From Hymenobacter elongatus (GTDB lineage Bacteria; Bacteroidota; Bacteroidia; Cytophagales; Hymenobacteraceae): 64,000 nucleotides of DNA. The notes under the pieces are model-generated. The model worked only from the letters and a program-made list of their open reading frames with translations. It made no database searches and was not told the DNA's origin. This document shows, one piece after another, positions 25,216 to 56,891 of the stretch (its first letter is position 1; each line of letters begins with the position of its first letter). The position numbers were made by a program, and so were the translations under genes. The stretch covers positions 124,001 to 188,000 of the forward strand of contig NZ_SRLD01000002.1 in assembly GCF_004745955.1 (NCBI RefSeq), read 5' to 3'.

Positions 25216-25853
25216 TACTCAGCGGTAGTATAGAGTTGTTCCAGAGATTTCAACCCGTCTTCCGACAGCAGCAAGGTATCCGTGTTCAGCAGATCGTGGG
25301 TGTTCAGCGCCACAGGCGTCGATACTTTCACTTTCTGAATATTACGGGCCGATAGTACCACGTTCTTGTCAACGTCGCCGGTCACGAGCAAGGTTTTCTT
25401 GCCGTTATTCAGCTTCAGACCCGACAAAATCGAGAGGAAATCTTTCGTTTTGGGAGCGCTCAAGGTGATATTCTCCACCAGAGCAATTTTGCCATCCTGA
25501 GCCAGGACCGACAGAGCGGACAAACGAGCTAGGCGCTTGGTCTTTTTGTTCAGCTTGAAGCCGTAGTCACGTGGCTCGGGGCCGAATACACGGCCACCAC
25601 CAATGAATACCGGCGACTTCATGCTGCCGGCGCGGGCACCGCCCGTACCTTTTTGCTTCTTGAGCTTCTTCGTGGTGCCATGCACCTCGTTGCGCTGCTT
25701 CGACTTGTGCGTACCCTGGCGCTGATTGGCCAGGTACTGCTTCACGTCGAGGTACATCACGTGCTCGTTCGGCTCGAGGCCGAAGATGGTGTCAGACAGC
25801 GTGACCTTGCGGCCGGTGTCTTCACCCTTGATGTTATATACTGACAGTTCCAT
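25215..25853 (-). CDS. rplD: 50S ribosomal protein L4
   Basis: 212 residues. Assembly initiator that lines the exit tunnel through its loop (KKLKKQKGTGGARAGSMKSP). In E. coli L4 is the S10-operon repressor. Six bp after rplC. Confidence 0.98.
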   Translation of the reverse strand: MELSVYNIKGEDTGRKVTLSDTIFGLEPNEHVMYLDVKQYLANQRQGTHKSKQRNEVHGTTKKLKKQKGTGGARAGSMKSPVFIGGGRVFGPEPRDYGFKLNKKTKRLARLSALSVLAQDGKIALVENITLSAPKTKDFLSILSGLKLNNGKKTLLVTGDVDKNVVLSARNIQKVKVSTPVALNTHDLLNTDTLLLSEDGLKSLEQLYTTAE

Positions 25854-25859
25854 CTTGCG

Positions 25860-26480
25860 TTATTTTTCCAGGACCACGTAAGAGTTCTTGGCACCGGGAA
25901 TAGAGCCGCTCACCAGAATCAGATTCTTGTCAGCTACTACGCGCATCACCTTCAGGTTCTGCACTTTTACCCGGTCGTTGCCCATGCGACCACCCATGCG
26001 CATTCCTTTGAATACGCGCGAAGGCCAGGAGCAAGCACCGATAGAACCAGGGTGACGCAGACGATTGTGCTGACCGTGGGTCTGCCCGCCTACACCGGCA
26101 AAGTTGTAGCGTTTTACTACGCCCTGGAAACCTTTACCTTTTGAGGTGCCTACTACGTCCACGAACTCACCTTCCTCGAAGAGAGTAGCGTCGATGGTAG
26201 AACCTGCTGCATATGTTGACTCCTCCGTGAGGCGGAACTCAACCAGCTTTTTCTTGGGGGTGGTACCGGCTTTAGCGAAGTGACCAGCAAGTGCTTTGGT
26301 CGTGTTCTTCGCTTTTTTCTCGCCGTAGCCGATTTGAATGGCGGTGTAACCGTCATTCGCGACTGTTTTAACCTGCGTCACTATGCACGGACCCGCCTCG
26401 ATGAGCGTGCAGGGAATGTTTTTCCCGTCCGGAGTGAAGAGGCTTGTCATACCGATTTTTTTACCGATGATGCCAGGCAT
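25860..26480 (-). CDS. rplC: 50S ribosomal protein L3
   Basis: 206 residues from the ATG at 26480 ([15 protein letters not shown]); upstream frame to 26522 is leader. Assembly initiator near the peptidyl transferase centre; [26 protein letters not shown] (given in part) includes the methylated-Gln region equivalent. In most bacteria rplC directly follows rpsJ, but here an unrelated membrane-protein gene separates them, and rplC has its own promoter. Confidence 0.98.
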
Positions 26481-26510
26481 TCTGTTAGATTTTATGAAAA
26501 GACGCAATGA

Positions 26511-26533
26511 GAAAACGCCCAAATAGCGTTTTC
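26511..26533 (-). promoter_or_regulatory. Small leader hairpin before rplC
   Basis: GAAAACGC and GCGTTTTC pair around a 7-nt loop in the about 60-nt 5' leader between the rplC promoter and the ATG. It could be a control element for the S10-type operon; it is short and unsupported by comparison. Confidence 0.4.
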
Positions 26534-26545
26534 GTAATGGGAGTG

Positions 26546-26577
26546 CAAAGCTAGGAAATAGTTACGTCATATTGCAA
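26546..26577 (-). promoter_or_regulatory. Bacteroidota-type promoter of the rplC operon
   Basis: TTG at 26577-26575, 21 bp, then TAGCTTTG at 26553-26546, matching the -33/-7 pattern. It is 66 bp upstream of the rplC ATG. It gives the rplC-to-rpsH genes a start independent of rpsJ, as expected given the intervening foreign gene and terminator. Confidence 0.7.
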
Positions 26578-26756
26578 CCCCGTTCCGAAATATTTTCAGA
26601 ATCACGTAGTTGGCTCTGTGAAAGACATATTATCAAGGTCTGATCAGCCTCGTTTACACTTGCTAACACTAACTGGCACTTTTGAAGAGCGCAGACTACG
26701 TGCCCATCTAGTGAAAGGAGCTTGACAGAGCGAATAAACAATAAGGCGGTTACTGT

Positions 26757-28031
26757 TCAGGCAGGTCGCCACCCCTTCCCTACTTGTTGCTGCCCTGACG
26801 TAATCCCGTTCAGGGCTAATAGAATAAAGAATAGAGAGTATGTTAGACCCACCTGAGTTTCTAAAGTATATTCAACTAAAAACGAGAGAGAGACAATGGT
26901 ATACTGGACTATGAGTAATGGCGCAAAGCGGGGCCAAGCCCACAACAGGGGATAATAGAAGCTCAACGTAAATAACAAAACTCCCACTAGCCCGAAGGCG
27001 ACTGCCAGATAGATAAATTGATTGTGAGGCATGATGTAGGACTCCTCGCGGATACTGGGGTAATCGGTACGATAGTGCACGGCCAACTCCTGTGTCATAT
27101 CAGCCTTGCTTACGCCAACCAGTGGATTGGCTTTAATAACCTTTGCTGCGACCTTATAGGAATAGACCCTAGCAACTAAGGAGTAATTGTTGGCAGCATC
27201 GACATTTTTTACTTCACCCAAGTCGGCTTGGGTGTTGACAAACTTGTTCCGGAACGTAGGAAAGCTCATATAGCTTACTACTAGCAGTAGCACAAGCGTG
27301 GCACCTACTATAGCCGCACGCTGGTACTGACGGGCACGGACAACCAACCAACCAATTATTAATATACCTACCGCATAGAATGTAACCAGCCCACTTCTGA
27401 CAGCAAGCAAGTGCTGAAACAGGGCCAGTAGTACTACGGCTACCAGCAATAACGACCGAATCTGCTTGTCGAGGTTGTCGAAGGCCAATAGAGCCAAAGC
27501 GGCTGCCGTAGCCAGCGTTACCATCAGGCTGAACCGGATGTGGTCAGGCTCCGTCGGCATAATCTTGGACCGCAGATACATGTCATTGATTTCTGTTGCA
27601 TGCAGCAAGTAGTTACTAGTACTCAGTAGAGCCGATACTACAACGCAGCTGATAAAGAGTATCCAGAGCAATTTCAGATACCGCGAGGGTAGTGCTGGCA
27701 GCAGCCAAAAAGCCAACGGTAACAGTAGGAAAGGAGATTGTAGAACCACGTCACGGATATATTCCTTCATGTTGGACTGCTCCGTTATGAAGCCCCCAGC
27801 CGCATGAAGGACAAAGACGCCCACCAACGCCGCATACATACGCCAATCATTACGCATGGGCTGCTCGGACCTATGCAACGTCGCGTAACAGAAGGCAGTT
27901 AGGGTCACTCCAATGATACCAATGCTGGGCAGAATTCGAAAAAAATTGGCAACGAACAAACCGATGATGATGAATGAGCAGAAAATGGCGGCGGCACCGG
28001 TGAGCCGAGGAACTGTGAGCAGTGACTTCAT
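26757..28031 (-). CDS. O-antigen ligase/polymerase family membrane protein
   Basis: 424 residues with about 11-12 hydrophobic segments. A long periplasmic loop near residues 265-335 contains NPLVGVSKADMTQELAVHYR and MPHNQFIYLAVAFGLVG, the Wzy_C-type motif (NP-x-GVG, HNxxL) of O-antigen ligases and polymerases. Such proteins join or polymerise polysaccharide at the periplasmic face of the inner membrane. It lies alone inside the ribosomal supercluster, between rpsJ and rplC, with a terminator before and a promoter after. It uses more rare codons and is more AT-rich than its neighbours by eye. It is a distant paralogue of the protein at 53677-54951. The 234-bp gap 26523-26756 holds only the rplC promoter and leader. 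Confidence 0.85.
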   Translation of the reverse strand: MKSLLTVPRLTGAAAIFCSFIIIGLFVANFFRILPSIGIIGVTLTAFCYATLHRSEQPMRNDWRMYAALVGVFVLHAAGGFITEQSNMKEYIRDVVLQSPFLLLPLAFWLLPALPSRYLKLLWILFISCVVVSALLSTSNYLLHATEINDMYLRSKIMPTEPDHIRFSLMVTLATAAALALLAFDNLDKQIRSLLLVAVVLLALFQHLLAVRSGLVTFYAVGILIIGWLVVRARQYQRAAIVGATLVLLLVVSYMSFPTFRNKFVNTQADLGEVKNVDAANNYSLVARVYSYKVAAKVIKANPLVGVSKADMTQELAVHYRTDYPSIREESYIMPHNQFIYLAVAFGLVGVLLFTLSFYYPLLWAWPRFAPLLIVQYTIVSLSFLVEYTLETQVGLTYSLFFILLALNGITSGQQQVGKGWRPA

Positions 28032-28126
28032 TATAAATACATCAGAAAGTAAGCTTGTCCATTAGCGCACCTAATAGTGCGGAATTGGTGTTGCAAGTTG
28101 AGTAGTATATATAAGAAAACACCCCA

Positions 28127-28152
28127 CCGGCTCTGAAACCGATGGGGTGTTT
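28127..28152 (-). terminator. Intrinsic terminator after rpsJ
   Basis: AAACACCCCA(T/C)CGG hairpin with 8-nt loop, followed on the minus strand by TTTTCTTAT. Lies 28 bp past the rpsJ stop and upstream of the O-antigen-ligase-family gene, closing the rpsL-rpsG-fusA-rpsJ unit. Confidence 0.82.
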
Positions 28153-28179
28153 ATTCTAATTATTTAATGAAACCGGTCC

Positions 28180-28485
28180 TCAGACTTTGATTTCAACGTC
28201 AACGCCGCTAGGCAGCTCAAGCTTCATCAGGGCGTCTACCGTCTTCGACGAAGTCGAGTAGATATCCACGAGGCGCTTGTAGGTGCAGAGCTGGAACTGC
28301 TCACGCGACTTCTTGTTCACGTGGGGCGAACGAAGAACGGTGAATTTTTCTTTGTCGGTCGGCAAGGGAATCGGCCCGCTTACGATAGCGCCCGTAGCCT
28401 TCACCGCCTTCACAATCTTCTCCGACGATTTGTCCACTAGGTTGTGGTCGTAGGATTTGAGTTTAATGCGAATTTTCTGGTTCAT
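28180..28485 (-). CDS. rpsJ: 30S ribosomal protein S10
   Basis: 101 residues. Binds 16S rRNA in the head and, with NusB, acts in antitermination. [16 protein letters not shown] and [28 protein letters not shown] (given in part) are diagnostic. Follows fusA by 21 bp. Confidence 0.98.
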
Positions 28486-28506
28486 GTGATGTTGAGTGAA
28501 AGCGGA

Positions 28507-30651
28507 TTAGCGAATGGAGTTACCCTTCTGCTTGGCAATGATGCCTTCGGCAAGGTTTTGTGGTACCTGGTCGTAGTGCGAGAACGTGAGCGAAGCCGAA
28601 GCCCGACCTGACGAAATCGTACGCAGCGTCGTTACATAGCCGAACAACTCCGACAGCGGAACGTCAGCCTTGATAACGTTCAGACCACCTTTGGTATCCA
28701 AACCTTTCATGATACCGCGACGACGGTTAAGGTCACCGGTTACGGAACCCGTGTACTCGTCGGGCGAAACTACTTCTACGCCCATGATAGGCTCGAGCAG
28801 TTTCGGACCAGCCAAGCGACCAGCTTCGCGGAAACCACCACGGGCGGCAAGTTCGAACGACAGGGCGTCCGAGTCAACGTCGTGGTACGAACCGTAAAAC
28901 AGGCGCACGCGCATGCCTTCGATTGGGAAGCCAGCCAGTGGACCGTTCTTCATCGCCTCTTCGAAGCCTTTCTGAACCGGGGCAATGAATTCGCGCGGGA
29001 TAACACCACCGGTGATACCATTTACGAACTCCAGACCTGGCTTTTCCGGATCGGTTTCTTTCGGGCCCAGTTCGAACTGGATATCACCGAATTTACCACG
29101 ACCACCGGTCTGCTTCTTATAGGTTTCGCGGTGCTCCACCTTCTTGGTCAGAATCTCCTTGTAGGCTACCATCGGGGCACCCTGGTTGATTTCAACCTTG
29201 AACTCCCGACGCATACGGTCGATGATAATTTCAAGGTGAAGCTCACCCATGCCTTTCAGTACTGTCTGGCCCGTCTCAGGGTCCGTCTGTACTACCAGGG
29301 TAGGATCTTCTTCCACGAGTTTGGCAATGGCCATACCCATCTTATCCATGTCCGCCTGAGTTTTAGGCTCGATGGCGTAACCGATAACGGGCTCCGGGAA
29401 GCTCATCGACTCCAGTACCACGCGCGACTTCTCGTCGGTCAGCGTGTCACCGGTTTTGATGTCCTTGAAGCCTACACCCGCCGCAATATCACCCGCCTGG
29501 ATCTTGTCAATCGGGTTCTGCTTGTTGGAGTGCATCTGCATCAGGCGCGAAATACGCTCCTTCTTGTTCGTGCGGTTGTTGTGCACGTACGAGCCGGCAT
29601 CGAGCACGCCGCTGTAGCAGCGGAAGAAGCACAGACGACCAACGAAGGGGTCGGTAGCAATCTTGAACGCCAGGGCGGTGAACGGCTCGCTGTTGTCGGG
29701 GTGACGAATCACTTCAGCACCCGTGTCCGGGTCGGTACCAACGATGGCCGGCATGTCGAGCGGCGACGGCAGGTAAGCCATTACGCCATCCAGCATAGAC
29801 TGCACACCTTTGTTTTTGAAGGCCGAGCCGCACATTACGGGCGAGAACTTCATGTCGATAACCGCTTGGCGGATAACAACCATCATTTCTTCGCGGGTAA
29901 TGCTGTCCGGATCGTCAAAAAATTTCTCCAGCAGACGGTCGTCGTATTCGGCAACGCTTTCTACCAGTTTCTGACGCCACTCGGCTACGGTTTCCACCAG
30001 ATCCTCGGGAACCGGGATTTCGTGGTAGGCCTTGCCCTGGGTAGCATCATCCCATACGATAGCCTTACCAGTCAGCAAGTCGACAACACCCTTAAAGGTA
30101 TCTTCGGCACCGATTGGAATTTGCAGCGGCACGGGATTAGCGCCTAGCTTGTCTTTGATTTCGCTAACCGCCTTGAAGAAGTCAGCACCGGCACGGTCCA
30201 TCTTGTTGACGAAGCAGATGCGGGGCACCTTGTACTTGTCAGCCTGACGCCATACGGTTTCCGACTGCGGCTCAACGCCCGAAACGGCGCAGAACAGGGC
30301 AACGGCACCATCGAGTACACGCAGCGAGCGTTCAACTTCTACCGTGAAGTCAACGTGGCCGGGGGTATCAATCAGGTTGATTTTATACTGCTTGGTCTCC
30401 GGGGTAGGCTCGCCGTTGGCGTCCGTCGGGTAGTTCCAGAACGTGGTGGTAGCAGCCGAAGTGATGGTGATACCACGCTCCTGCTCCTGCTCCATCCAGT
30501 CCATCGTGGCGGCACCTTCGTGCACTTCCCCGATTTTGTGGGTCTTACCGGTGTAGTAGAGAATGCGCTCCGACGTCGTGGTCTTACCGGCGTCGATGTG
30601 CGCCATAATCCCGATGTTCCGGAGGTATTGCAGGTCTTTATTAACAGCCAT
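28507..30651 (-). CDS. fusA: Elongation factor G
   Basis: 714 residues from the ATG at 30651 ([14 protein letters not shown]); an upstream in-frame start at 30720 would run into the leader structure. Translocation GTPase. G1 AHIDAGKT (17-24), G2 region [12 protein letters not shown]3 DTPGHVDF, G4 NKMDRAG. Domain IV loop region ([15 protein letters not shown]) and domain V are complete. Normal length for EF-G1. Confidence 0.98.
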
Positions 30652-53676: not shown

Positions 53677-54951
53677 TTATTGGACCCGGTAGTCGTCTCT
53701 CTCCGTGGCTACTACAAGAAAGCCGTAGAGAAAAACAAAGAGGTTGAAGCCAATCTGCAACTCCAGCAAGGAGTCGACCAGCATAGCAGCCCCCAAGACT
53801 AACAAGAACTGCACTACGTACGGATTCTGCCGCTGTGTGGGTTGCAATAAGGGAGTGAGTAATACTAAGAGCCAGAAAAACAACCCCAGCAAGCCACTGG
53901 ATACCAAGTAGTGGAGATACTGATTATGGATCATGGGCCGGTTTTCGGGTCTGAGACCATAGTCATGCCAGGCATACTCCTGCATCATGGCAGCTTGGGC
54001 GTCGGCGGGGCCCACACCCAGCCAAGGGTTACGAGCCGCAATAGCCTGGGCAGTTTGCCAGGCGACCAAGCGCTGGGAAATGGATGAGGTATTAATATCC
54101 CGGCCATTGGCAAACTGCTCTATGTCATAAAGAGAGCCCCCCAGACGGCGCTGAATGGATGGCAAGGCATAGTAGGCGGCGAGCGGAATCAGAACACACG
54201 CCAGAAGCAAGGCCAAGCCGGCAATAAGCTGCCGCTTCAGCACGACCACCAATACCGCATCAACCAGCAAAGCAGCATATAATGCCAGCAGCCCCGTGCG
54301 GTAGGCCAACACGTGCAAGACCAGCACTGCCATAGCAGAAGCCAGCCGTAATAGCCAGCGCATGCTCGTGCTGGCCAAGAGGCTGCGCTGAAGCAGGAAG
54401 CCGAAATAAGCGGCCAGCGCCAGCATGATGCCGAAATGAATATGGAAAATGCGGGTGATAGACGGCACATTCTGTCCCTCCTGCATCATCCGATTAGCGC
54501 CCGCCGGATCGAGCAGGTAGCGGCCCATAGTGGCGGACCCAAGTAAGGCAGCACCCATCACGAAGAAACACCCTACTGCATAGCGTTGCCGATGGCTGAG
54601 CGGTACGGCCAGGGCAAAGGCCAGTGGTACGCCCAGCAGCGGCAGCTGGCGAAATACCTCGTGTCGCCAAACAGCCCATGCAGAGGTATACAGGCCGCTC
54701 AGGAGCAACAGGGCGTAGAGCATCGCTAGGCGAATGGCCGCCCCATTGCGCAACCAGCGTGGCACCTCCCGCCGAATGGCAGGATTGATCAGGGCAGCCA
54801 CCACACCAGCTACTGGGCTCAGAGAAACCAATGCCCGGGCGGCAAACAGGCCCACCACCCCCGCTATGCACGCAAGCAGCAGCAGGTACTGAGAGAGCCG
54901 GCCATCATGGTAAGCGCGACGGACTGTACTCCCCAACGAGGACGGCATCAT
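53677..54951 (-). CDS. O-antigen ligase/polymerase family membrane protein
   Basis: 424 residues, about 11-12 hydrophobic segments. Wzy_C-type loop: NPWLGVGPADAQAAMMQEYAW and IHNQYLHYLVSSGLLG. Joins or polymerises surface polysaccharide at the inner membrane. Third gene of a minus-strand operon after a GT2 and a GT9 glycosyltransferase, which suggests lipopolysaccharide core and O-antigen assembly. Distant paralogue of the protein inside the ribosomal cluster (26757-28031): equal length, same order of HIxF, R(S/T)GL, NPxxGV and HNQ motifs. Confidence 0.87.
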   Translation of the reverse strand: MMPSSLGSTVRRAYHDGRLSQYLLLLACIAGVVGLFAARALVSLSPVAGVVAALINPAIRREVPRWLRNGAAIRLAMLYALLLLSGLYTSAWAVWRHEVFRQLPLLGVPLAFALAVPLSHRQRYAVGCFFVMGAALLGSATMGRYLLDPAGANRMMQEGQNVPSITRIFHIHFGIMLALAAYFGFLLQRSLLASTSMRWLLRLASAMAVLVLHVLAYRTGLLALYAALLVDAVLVVVLKRQLIAGLALLLACVLIPLAAYYALPSIQRRLGGSLYDIEQFANGRDINTSSISQRLVAWQTAQAIAARNPWLGVGPADAQAAMMQEYAWHDYGLRPENRPMIHNQYLHYLVSSGLLGLFFWLLVLLTPLLQPTQRQNPYVVQFLLVLGAAMLVDSLLELQIGFNLFVFLYGFLVVATERDDYRVQ

Positions 54952-54975
54952 AGCAGAGTGAAAGGTGCAAGTACG

Positions 54976-56016
54976 TCAGGATTGGGCAGAGGACAACGGG
55001 TGCCATGTCTGAATTCTGGCAGCGACTTCAGCGGCGGTAATAGCCTTAATGCAGCTACAAGCAGCCGGCGACTCGCGGCAGGCCGAGCAAGCAGGCCGGT
55101 CGAAGACTACGTACTCGGCATGGGGACCCAGCGGGGCCCAACGGCCCGGATGCGCCGGACGCATGGGTGGATAAAGGCCCAACGCATGTCGCCCCAGGGC
55201 AGCAGCCAGATGCAAAGGGCCAGTGCTGGCCGCAACCAGACCATCGGTGTGCGCAATAAAGGTTAACAATTGAGCCAGCGTAAGTCGGCCTGTGAGGTCG
55301 CCGGCCAGAAAAGCGGCATTTTCGTGTAGGAAAGCCGCGAGCTCCTGGCCTTCGGCAGCGGTGCCCGTGATGAATACTCGGTGGCCAGCCTGATGCAGCA
55401 GCCGAGCCAGCATCCCAAAATGCGCGAGGCCCCATTCGCGCGCACTGCCCCGGGACCGAGGGTGCAGGATAATGTTGAGCTGCCCGGGAATAAGCTGGGC
55501 CAATAAGAGTTCCACAGTAGCGGGCAATGGAACGGTAGCACGAAGCTGAACCAAAGCTGAAATAGCTGGCAGCGGCAACTCGGTGAGATACCCCAGCGGC
55601 TTGAGCAACTGCAGATTGAGCTGGGCCTCGTGCAGAGGAGAATGCCGACGACTAAGCGGCACCAGTCGGTTGCAGGTGAACCAGTGAATCCAGCGGTTTC
55701 GGGTACCGATACGAAGAGGGATGTTTGCTTTTTGGGCTACCCGAGCCAGGAGTTTGTTGGGAAAGACATGAACAATAGCCTCGGCCTGGTAGTGACGCAG
55801 GGCCGCTACCTGCTCCGGCTCGGAGAGTTTTAGCAGCTCATCATAGTTCAGGAAGGCATCGACCCACGGGCAGGCGTCGGCAACGGCCTGGGTGTAGGTG
55901 CGGCCAATAAGCACGACCCGGCAGCCGGGGAACAGCTGCTGAAGCTGACCACAGACGGGCAAGGTGAGGACTATATCTCCGATAGCATCGGTGCGGCTAA
56001 CCAGAAAAGTTCTCAT
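54976..56016 (-). CDS. Glycosyltransferase family 9 (heptosyltransferase-like)
   Basis: 346 residues from the ATG at 56016 (MRTFLVSRTDAIGDIVLTLP); upstream in-frame starts do not fit. The N-terminal DAIGDIVLTLPV motif, ILHPRSRGSAREWG and the DGLVAASTGPLHLAAALG acceptor motif are GT9 features. Probably adds heptose or another sugar to the LPS core. The ATG overlaps the GT2 stop by 4 bp. The Cys-rich end (CSACRESPAACSC) is frequent in Bacteroidota GT9 proteins. Confidence 0.9.
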   Translation of the reverse strand: MRTFLVSRTDAIGDIVLTLPVCGQLQQLFPGCRVVLIGRTYTQAVADACPWVDAFLNYDELLKLSEPEQVAALRHYQAEAIVHVFPNKLLARVAQKANIPLRIGTRNRWIHWFTCNRLVPLSRRHSPLHEAQLNLQLLKPLGYLTELPLPAISALVQLRATVPLPATVELLLAQLIPGQLNIILHPRSRGSAREWGLAHFGMLARLLHQAGHRVFITGTAAEGQELAAFLHENAAFLAGDLTGRLTLAQLLTFIAHTDGLVAASTGPLHLAAALGRHALGLYPPMRPAHPGRWAPLGPHAEYVVFDRPACSACRESPAACSCIKAITAAEVAARIQTWHPLSSAQS

Positions 56017-56789
56017 ACGGTAGCTGAAGCAGCGGTCGGCTTGGTGCGCAGCTTGGCGAATTTCAGGAAAACACCCCATGCCGAAATGGTGGCAATGCAC
56101 AAACCAGCAAATCCATCGAGAAAGCCCAGCCGGAAGAAGTACCCATGCACAAACTTCCAGACTGGCTTCAGCAGCAGGTGGAAAAGCGTTACTTGGCTTC
56201 TGCCACGCAGGGCCAGCTCAGCGGCGGCGATGCTGGTGAAACGGTTGAGCTGGCTCACATGCTGCTCTACGGAATGGTAGGAATAGTGGAGCGCGTCGCC
56301 CGCTAAAGCGCCTATACGTTGACCGGCGCATACCTCAAACCGCTCGTGCAGGAGCAACCCTTCCCACTGGCCCAGGCGCCGGTCGTAGAGGCGTAGCTTG
56401 CGGTCGGGGTACCAGCCGCCGTGCCGCACCCAGGTGCCGCAGTAGTTAGTCAGGCGGGCCAGCGTGTAGCCGGCGTGCTGCCAGCTGGCTGCAGCGGCCC
56501 GGATGCTGTGGCGTAGCTCTTCGGTTAGCACTTCATCAGCATCGAGCTGCAGCACATGGTCGTGGCAGGCCTGGGCGGTGGCGTAGTTTTTCTGCTCGAC
56601 ATAGCCCTCAAAAGCATGCTGAATGACGCGCACTCCGTGCTTTCGGCAAATTTCCACTGTGCGGTCGGTGGAGAAGGAATCCACAACTAAAACCTCATCG
56701 GCTATATCCTGCAATGCGTCGAGGCAGCGCCCGATGTTGGCTTCCTCATTGAAGGTGATGATGACGACAGAAAGAGAAATTGCGGGCAT
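56013..56789 (-). CDS. Glycosyltransferase family 2 (WaaE/KdtX-like)
   Basis: 258 residues from the ATG at 56789 (MPAISLSVVIITFNEE). GT-A fold: FNEEANIGRCLDAL near the N-terminus, VDSFSTDRT, a DADE metal motif, and the RKLRLYDRR segment. A hydrophobic stretch occurs near the C-terminus. This combination is typical of LPS core glucosyltransferases of the WaaE group. First gene of the LPS-type operon. Confidence 0.88.
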   Translation of the reverse strand: MPAISLSVVIITFNEEANIGRCLDALQDIADEVLVVDSFSTDRTVEICRKHGVRVIQHAFEGYVEQKNYATAQACHDHVLQLDADEVLTEELRHSIRAAAASWQHAGYTLARLTNYCGTWVRHGGWYPDRKLRLYDRRLGQWEGLLLHERFEVCAGQRIGALAGDALHYSYHSVEQHVSQLNRFTSIAAAELALRGRSQVTLFHLLLKPVWKFVHGYFFRLGFLDGFAGLCIATISAWGVFLKFAKLRTKPTAASATV

Positions 56790-56891
56790 ACGTGGCGTAA
56801 ATATCGGCAGCAATATTAGGGCAATCGAAAAGATTCCGAGCGGAGTATCTTCGCAGCGGGCCTCCATCCTACTGGTTTTGCCCAGGCACAT

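Follow-up and report, generated by a model that had tools for sequence, protein, structure and literature searches.

Organization of the rpsJ-rplC junction

The window, i.e. the whole stretch of 64,000 nucleotides of Hymenobacter elongatus DNA that was analysed, contains the ribosomal protein genes rpsJ and rplC separated by a gap of 1699 nt. Inside this gap, and on the same strand as both genes, lies a gene of the O-antigen ligase family. The elements of the junction, and one related gene of the window, are the following:

28180..28485, minus strand: rpsJ (S10), downstream of fusA
28117..28152, minus strand: intrinsic terminator of rpsJ, a 16-pair stem followed by TCTTATATAT
28093..28100, minus strand: candidate promoter box of the ligase gene (conserved CAACTTGC), just past the rpsJ terminator
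26757..28031, minus strand: predicted WaaL-type O-antigen ligase gene (Wzy_C), 424 aa, ATG start, from the open reading frame, Pfam and the structural model
26575..26605, minus strand: A/T-rich stretch CTGAAAATATTT, directly upstream of the rplC promoter, from an alignment of 10 near relatives
26546..26577, minus strand: rplC promoter, TTG-N21-TAGCTTTG with the box TAnnTTTG, identified by sequence
26511..26533, minus strand: rplC leader hairpin GAAAACGCT-ATTTG-GGCGTTTTC, covarying
25860..26480, minus strand: rplC (L3), ATG at 26480, first gene of the downstream unit
53677..54951, minus strand: paralogous Wzy_C protein, 26% identical, in a GT2-GT9-Wzy_C cassette outside the insertion

A sequence-only reading of this DNA had proposed a 424-residue open reading frame between rpsJ and rplC and on their strand, a terminator after rpsJ and a promoter before rplC. 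All three were recovered: the frame at 26757-28031 (minus), the terminator at 28152-28117 compared with the 28127-28152 first given, i.e. within about ten bases, and the promoter exactly at 26546-26577. All three features are real. As to the sharing of a transcription unit with the S10 operon, the view from the sequence is that a terminator precedes the ligase gene and a promoter follows it. The rplC promoter was not detected in a scan with the sigma-70 consensus. The A/T-rich stretch CTGAAAATATTT (26575-26605) resembles an upstream promoter element and is kept in the 10 near relatives aligned. The TTG at 26522, taken as the start of rplC in the list of open reading frames, falls within the rplC leader.

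Identity of the inserted protein

The family assignment made in the sequence-only reading, O-antigen ligase or polymerase, was confirmed by Pfam, where the protein matches PF04932 (Wzy_C) with 66.6 bits (cut-off 31.7, E 2.7e-18). No NCBIfam family was matched up to E 1, including TIGR03097 (exosortase-associated O-glycosylation ligase), and a sequence-only profile search against PDB chains gave 0 matches up to E 10; these two negatives weigh against the reading preferred below. The fold was predicted with AlphaFold2 (pLDDT 92.4, pTM 0.92); the model is all-helical, with 17 helices of at least 4 residues, counted on the model and not as membrane spans. Its best structural match is the solved ligase WaaL (7TPG_B; Z 25.9, rmsd 4.3, 375 residues aligned), followed by FtsW/RodA at Z 15.6 and below, and in a Foldseek search WaaL was the sole match under E 0.001 (E 1e-6, TM 0.60).

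In the solved ligase two Arg bind the diphosphate and a His activates the acceptor (PMC10920833). Three residues of the Hymenobacter protein, R212, R288 and H336, are invariant in 115/115 aligned homologues, paralogues and outgroups included, and their spacing (76 and 48) is close to that of R191, R265 and H313 of the solved ligase (74 and 48; PMC10920833); H336 is equated with the ligase His by spacing and Pfam, without residue-level superposition. Except for GT127, the rest of the clan has Asp or Glu at the position of that His (PMC10920833).

The protein thus resembles WaaL (CAZy GT121; PDB 7TPG), a protein of 12 transmembrane helices and a long periplasmic loop, in its predicted fold, its Wzy_C domain and its two Arg and His with similar spacing; it differs from it by an identity of 13% only, and the Hymenobacter gene lies between ribosomal units and not in an LPS cluster. 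The SEDS peptidoglycan polymerases FtsW and RodA have a related fold (Z 12.6 to 15.6), but the Z is lower, the role is different and a conserved Asp stands where the Hymenobacter protein has His (PMC10920833). The nearest comparison within the window is the Wzy_C paralogue at 53677-54951, which is of the same Pfam family, also has 424 aa and conserves the positions of R212, R288 and H336, whereas it is 26% identical, falls in a separate clade and belongs to a GT2-GT9-Wzy_C cassette. This LPS-core-like cassette (53677-56891, minus strand) comprises a GT2 gene (56013-56891), a GT9 gene (54976-56100) and the Wzy_C gene itself. The ligase gene is not the sole Wzy_C member of its genome, since 2 to 6 Wzy_C matches per genome were counted in 22 Hymenobacter genomes (4 in H. 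elongatus, 3 of them over the cut-off).

Judged by sequence, the protein would be an O-antigen ligase of WaaL type, with a ligase rather than a polymerase activity, and the protein sequence and predicted fold together suggest a new member of the known WaaL kind. The acceptor of the transferred glycan would most likely be lipid A-core. A Wzy-type polymerase of O-antigen or exopolysaccharide shares the same broad fold class, ligases and some polymerases being related (PMC10920833), and the gene stands alone at the site of the window, with no sugar-transferase gene adjoining it, so that the context leaves its job unnamed; this last point counts against the reading that we prefer. We nevertheless consider a polymerase unlikely: the trait of inverting Wzy polymerases, Asp or Glu at the ligase-His position (clan GT-C1), is absent, a His being found at this acceptor-activating position in 115/115 rows, while the clan's other families, GT127 apart, have Asp/Glu there (PMC10920833), and a ligase is by far the best solved structural match.

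Wzy_C-type domains are also carried by protein O-oligosaccharyltransferases (PglL-like), which place a glycan onto secreted proteins. Such a role for the present protein seems improbable. The paralogue does have a match to TIGR03097, at 35.6 bits well below the cut-off of 188.1, but the ligase protein itself has no NCBIfam match, and some of its relatives adjoin genes for sugar transferases of the GT9 (heptosyltransferase) and GT2 families, an arrangement like that of LPS core clusters.

Distribution among relatives

The junction was read in 115 of 120 Hymenobacter genomes and in all 8 genomes of the sister genus (g27), together with 20 loci from four further genera of the family, a subset of those detected, and 20 loci from other families of the order. 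The five Hymenobacter genomes left out had either no rplC match (3) or two weaker rplC matches each (2); their best ligase match, among the matches listed, has the strength of the paralogue (E 3e-16 to 5e-26).

In 75 of the 115 Hymenobacter loci (72 whole, 3 broken), and in 8/8 loci of the sister genus, the rpsJ-rplC gap holds an orthologue. It was found at the site in 0/20 loci of the four other genera, and upstream of rplC in 0/20 loci of the other families, within the stretch read. Twelve further Hymenobacter genomes have the site without the gene and an orthologue (40-49% identity) elsewhere, which in G081 is in two pieces, among the matches listed. At 27 loci there is no orthologue at the site, and the best genome-wide match, again among the matches listed, is of paralogue strength (E 1.4e-28 to 5.8e-12). 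One genome, G033, combines a broken site copy with a whole copy at another place; the 12 "moved" genomes include G081 and not G033, and the 12 "relocated" copies include G033 and not G081.

The content of the junction is variable. Among the 39 loci from which the gene has moved or is absent, 34 have empty gaps of 227-380 nt, 2 have a lone minus-strand ORF resembling, by eye, the GT2 gene of L121, and 2 have a different ORF; at the remaining locus the reading did not reach back as far as rpsJ. Two ligases each are present at L102 and L113, and at L111 Pfam identifies a ligase, a GT9 and a GT2 gene together in the rpsJ-rplC gap; 7 of the 12 relocated copies have as a neighbour a member of a single gene cluster that resembles, by eye, the GT9 gene of L111. 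At L063 (genome G018) the slot between rpsJ and rplC (L063 3577-4890) is filled by a member of the paralogue family and not by the orthologue. Genome G096 (L293 1300-15288) has a 4662-aa ORF, whose start looks secreted by eye and which occupies the greater part of the 18 kb separating rpsJ from the ligase gene.

The placement looks odd but is ordinary for the genus, because related species show the gene there, probably since before the genus arose. The comparison of the rpsJ-rplC interval across relatives, which the sequence-only reading had suggested, thereby lowers the novelty of the arrangement: both Hymenobacter and the sister genus have the insertion as an ancestral, ordinary trait.

Origin and history of the insertion

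A protein tree was also built. In this quick maximum-likelihood tree of 115 proteins, the 82 site copies and the 12 relocated ones group in a single clade (SH-aLRT 100), those of the sister genus lying near its base. The broken or partial copies of L090, L129 and L206 were kept out of it, as was L091, which has no ORF of 250 aa; the trees are quick ones, in which long branches were flagged. The ligase tree was compared with a ribosomal/fusA tree of 143 loci. Path lengths are correlated (Spearman 0.50, at most 0.16 in 999 permutations; n = 80) and 21/77 splits are common to both trees (mean 0.16 in 50 permutations; n = 80). Selection was estimated from dN/dS, which is 0.028-0.119 in the 16/18 pairs computable, synonymous change being near or past saturation in many pairs. 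These values point to purifying selection on the ligase gene and, with the conservation of the site across the genus, place the arrangement beyond chance.

A single ancestral insertion is the best fit, because one clade holds both the site and the relocated copies; the gene would then have been lost, relocated and duplicated repeatedly and replaced once by a paralogue. The gene has probably been at the site since before Hymenobacter arose, and the proposal of a chance insertion "fixed early" was right as to its age, the insertion being ancestral in Hymenobacter and the sister genus. Some results count against this history: 56/77 splits differ between the ligase and ribosomal/fusA trees, and parsimony on the ribosomal tree gives 18 presence/absence changes at the site, a count that cannot separate loss from regain. 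Some relocated copies also speak against it: those of G075, G102, G124 and G011 cluster with a Hymenobacter lineage different from the one in which their ribosomal genes fall, so transfer of the ligase gene within the genus is likely.

The same discordant splits and presence/absence changes would be expected if related ligases had been inserted repeatedly and independently into a hotspot, as would the paralogue-family member of L063 and the movement of relocated copies between lineages. We find this rather improbable, given that the site and relocated copies are one clade correlated with the ribosomal tree and that the sister genus has the gene at the site in 8/8 loci.

Terminator, promoter and age of the split

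The box TAnnTTTG found before rplC is the primary-sigma -7 box described in Flavobacterium psychrophilum (PMC9723704). Its distribution within 300 nt of rplC was compared with counts expected from simple base shuffles. It is present at 80/80 loci with the gene (7.8 expected), 3/3 with a broken gene (0.4), 1/1 with the paralogue (0.2), 12/12 from which the gene has moved (1.7) and 27/27 where it is absent (3.1). The full pattern, with TTG 17-23 nt upstream of TAnnTTTG, occurs in 51/80, 3/3, 1/1, 8/12 and 9/27 of these loci, respectively. The rpsJ terminator, at loci where rpsJ was read, follows the same tendency: 77/78 present, 3/3 broken, 1/1 paralogue, 12/12 moved and 26/26 absent. In the other genera of the family the terminator was found in 19/20 loci and the box near rplC in only 9/20 (2.4 expected); in the other families of the order the box was found in 19/20 (3.7 expected) and the terminator in 7/9.

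Of the 20 loci of these other families (L153-L172), 11 show no rpsJ ahead of rplC in the part read, one of these being truncated by a contig end. The ribosomal cluster thus seems broken there at rpsJ-rplC; where rpsJ does lie upstream of rplC, the gap is 144-261 nt. The two genes, where they are neighbours in Cytophagales, therefore do not appear to form one tight operon. The view that the S10 and str operons are normally joined through rpsJ-rplC is thus only partly true of the Cytophagales loci compared.

Since the terminator and the box are equally present without the gene, and the terminator is found in 19/20 loci of the other genera, the split between rpsJ and rplC would predate the insertion. 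This greater age of the split is suggested mainly by the terminator and by the 19/20 boxes of the other families. The rplC promoter, correctly located in the sequence-only reading, is not "new" as stated there, the box being present without the gene too, and the idea that the split accommodates the insertion fails for the same reason.

A candidate promoter of the ligase gene

Just past the rpsJ terminator a short box, AACTTG, is found 61-83 nt past the rpsJ stop in 46/70 Hymenobacter loci with the gene and is missing from 24/70. Between 30 and 140 nt past the rpsJ stop it occurs in 0/26 absent, 0/12 moved, 0/3 broken, 0/1 paralogue and 0/20 other-genera loci. Overall it is present in 50/78 loci with the gene, vs 1.9 expected from simple base shuffles; as the loci are related, the counts cannot be taken as independent. 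An alignment of the 10 closest relatives shows CAACTT kept in 10/10, with diverging bases past the box. A similar box (TAACTTGC or TATCTTGC) lies 123-136 nt past the rpsJ stop in 7/8 loci of the sister genus and fits TAnnTTGY, a motif found in F. psychrophilum ahead of genes for LPS, amino-acid scavenging and gliding (PMC9723704); compared with TAnnTTGY, the Hymenobacter box mostly has C or G for the first T.

The two published boxes were also tried as ligase promoters. TAnnTTTG occurs in 9/78 upstream regions (3.3 expected) and TAnnTTGY in 13/78 (5.5 expected), so that neither fits the whole set, for which AACTTG does better. AACTTGY is not enriched across the whole window (9 found vs 18.8 expected) and the 110 nt ahead of each of the 12 relocated copies read showed no AACTTG; no AACTTG regulon is therefore claimed. 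At the junction the AACTTG box may be the ligase gene's own promoter, as the position and conservation of the motif suggest.

The position itself could be functional, read-through from fusA-rpsJ tying the ligase level to growth rate; the common orientation of rpsJ, rplC and the site copies (84/84 collected, some loci having two), the maintenance of the gene at the site in 75/115 loci and the scarcity of the primary-sigma box upstream of it (9/78) agree with this, but the intervening terminator (77/78), the minus-strand ORF between rpsJ and the ligase gene in some loci (the GT2 gene in L121), the whole copies located elsewhere in other genomes and the conserved AACTTG box make it very unlikely. 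No sign of a coupling of the ligase to translation was found among these data, and nothing supports the link between envelope synthesis and translation that had been suggested: where the site lacks the gene (39/115 loci), terminator and box are both still there in every case that could be read.

The rplC leader

A hairpin of 9-10 uninterrupted pairs is present in the rplC leader at 123/123 loci of Hymenobacter and the sister genus. In an alignment of the 57 distinct leaders 100% of cells pair, vs at most 67% in slid versions. Three pairs change on both sides, a number reached by 10/500 shuffles; 14 cells change on both sides (0/500 shuffles), and the covariation score was also reached by 0/500. 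No such hairpin was found in 40 outgroup rplC leaders, some of which have other hairpins of up to 9 pairs, and a search of positions 25800-29000 of the window against Rfam gave 0 matches up to E 1. In a published table of 20 new ribosomal leaders, an rplC-rplD leader is listed only for Archaeoglobi (PMC7247131). Through this hairpin the S10 unit of these bacteria might regulate its own expression.

Discussion

The reading that we favour, with a probability of roughly three in four, is that of an inner-membrane ligase of the WaaL kind whose gene entered a pre-existing rpsJ-rplC gap in a single ancestral event. The enzyme would take a completed glycan off undecaprenyl diphosphate and attach it to an acceptor. 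Its gene would have entered once, in the common ancestor of Hymenobacter and the sister genus, at a gap between transcription units that were already separate: an upstream unit ending in rpsJ and presumably closed by the intrinsic terminator, and an rplC-led S10 unit probably opened by its own promoter and leader. Placed between terminator and promoter, the ligase gene would disturb neither unit. Since then glycan genes would have been lost from the gap, swapped, doubled or added many times.

More tentatively, the junction could be a standing pocket for surface-glycan genes (the ligase, a paralogous ligase, GT2, GT9 and once the 4662-aa giant) in an otherwise rigid ribosomal cluster, with the ligase driven by an alternative-sigma promoter of the Flavobacterium LPS-gene kind (TAnnTTGY) behind the rpsJ terminator. 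This extended picture is possible and still doubtful.

No paper on a ligase insertion at rpsJ-rplC was found by title or beginning of abstract among the matches listed, nor any literature on Hymenobacter with O-antigen and ligase, in a search whose coverage leaves out most subscription journals.

The locus illustrates how a foreign gene can persist through the history of a genus inside a highly conserved cluster, by settling in the space between a pre-existing terminator and promoter, and it corrects the idea of an insertion forcing an operon apart. The 123 natural variants of one junction, in which the gene is present, broken, elsewhere, doubled, replaced or absent, can serve for testing the constraints on ribosomal gene order. 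Apart from the ligase, the covarying hairpin of the rplC leader offers a directly testable candidate for autoregulation of the S10 unit.
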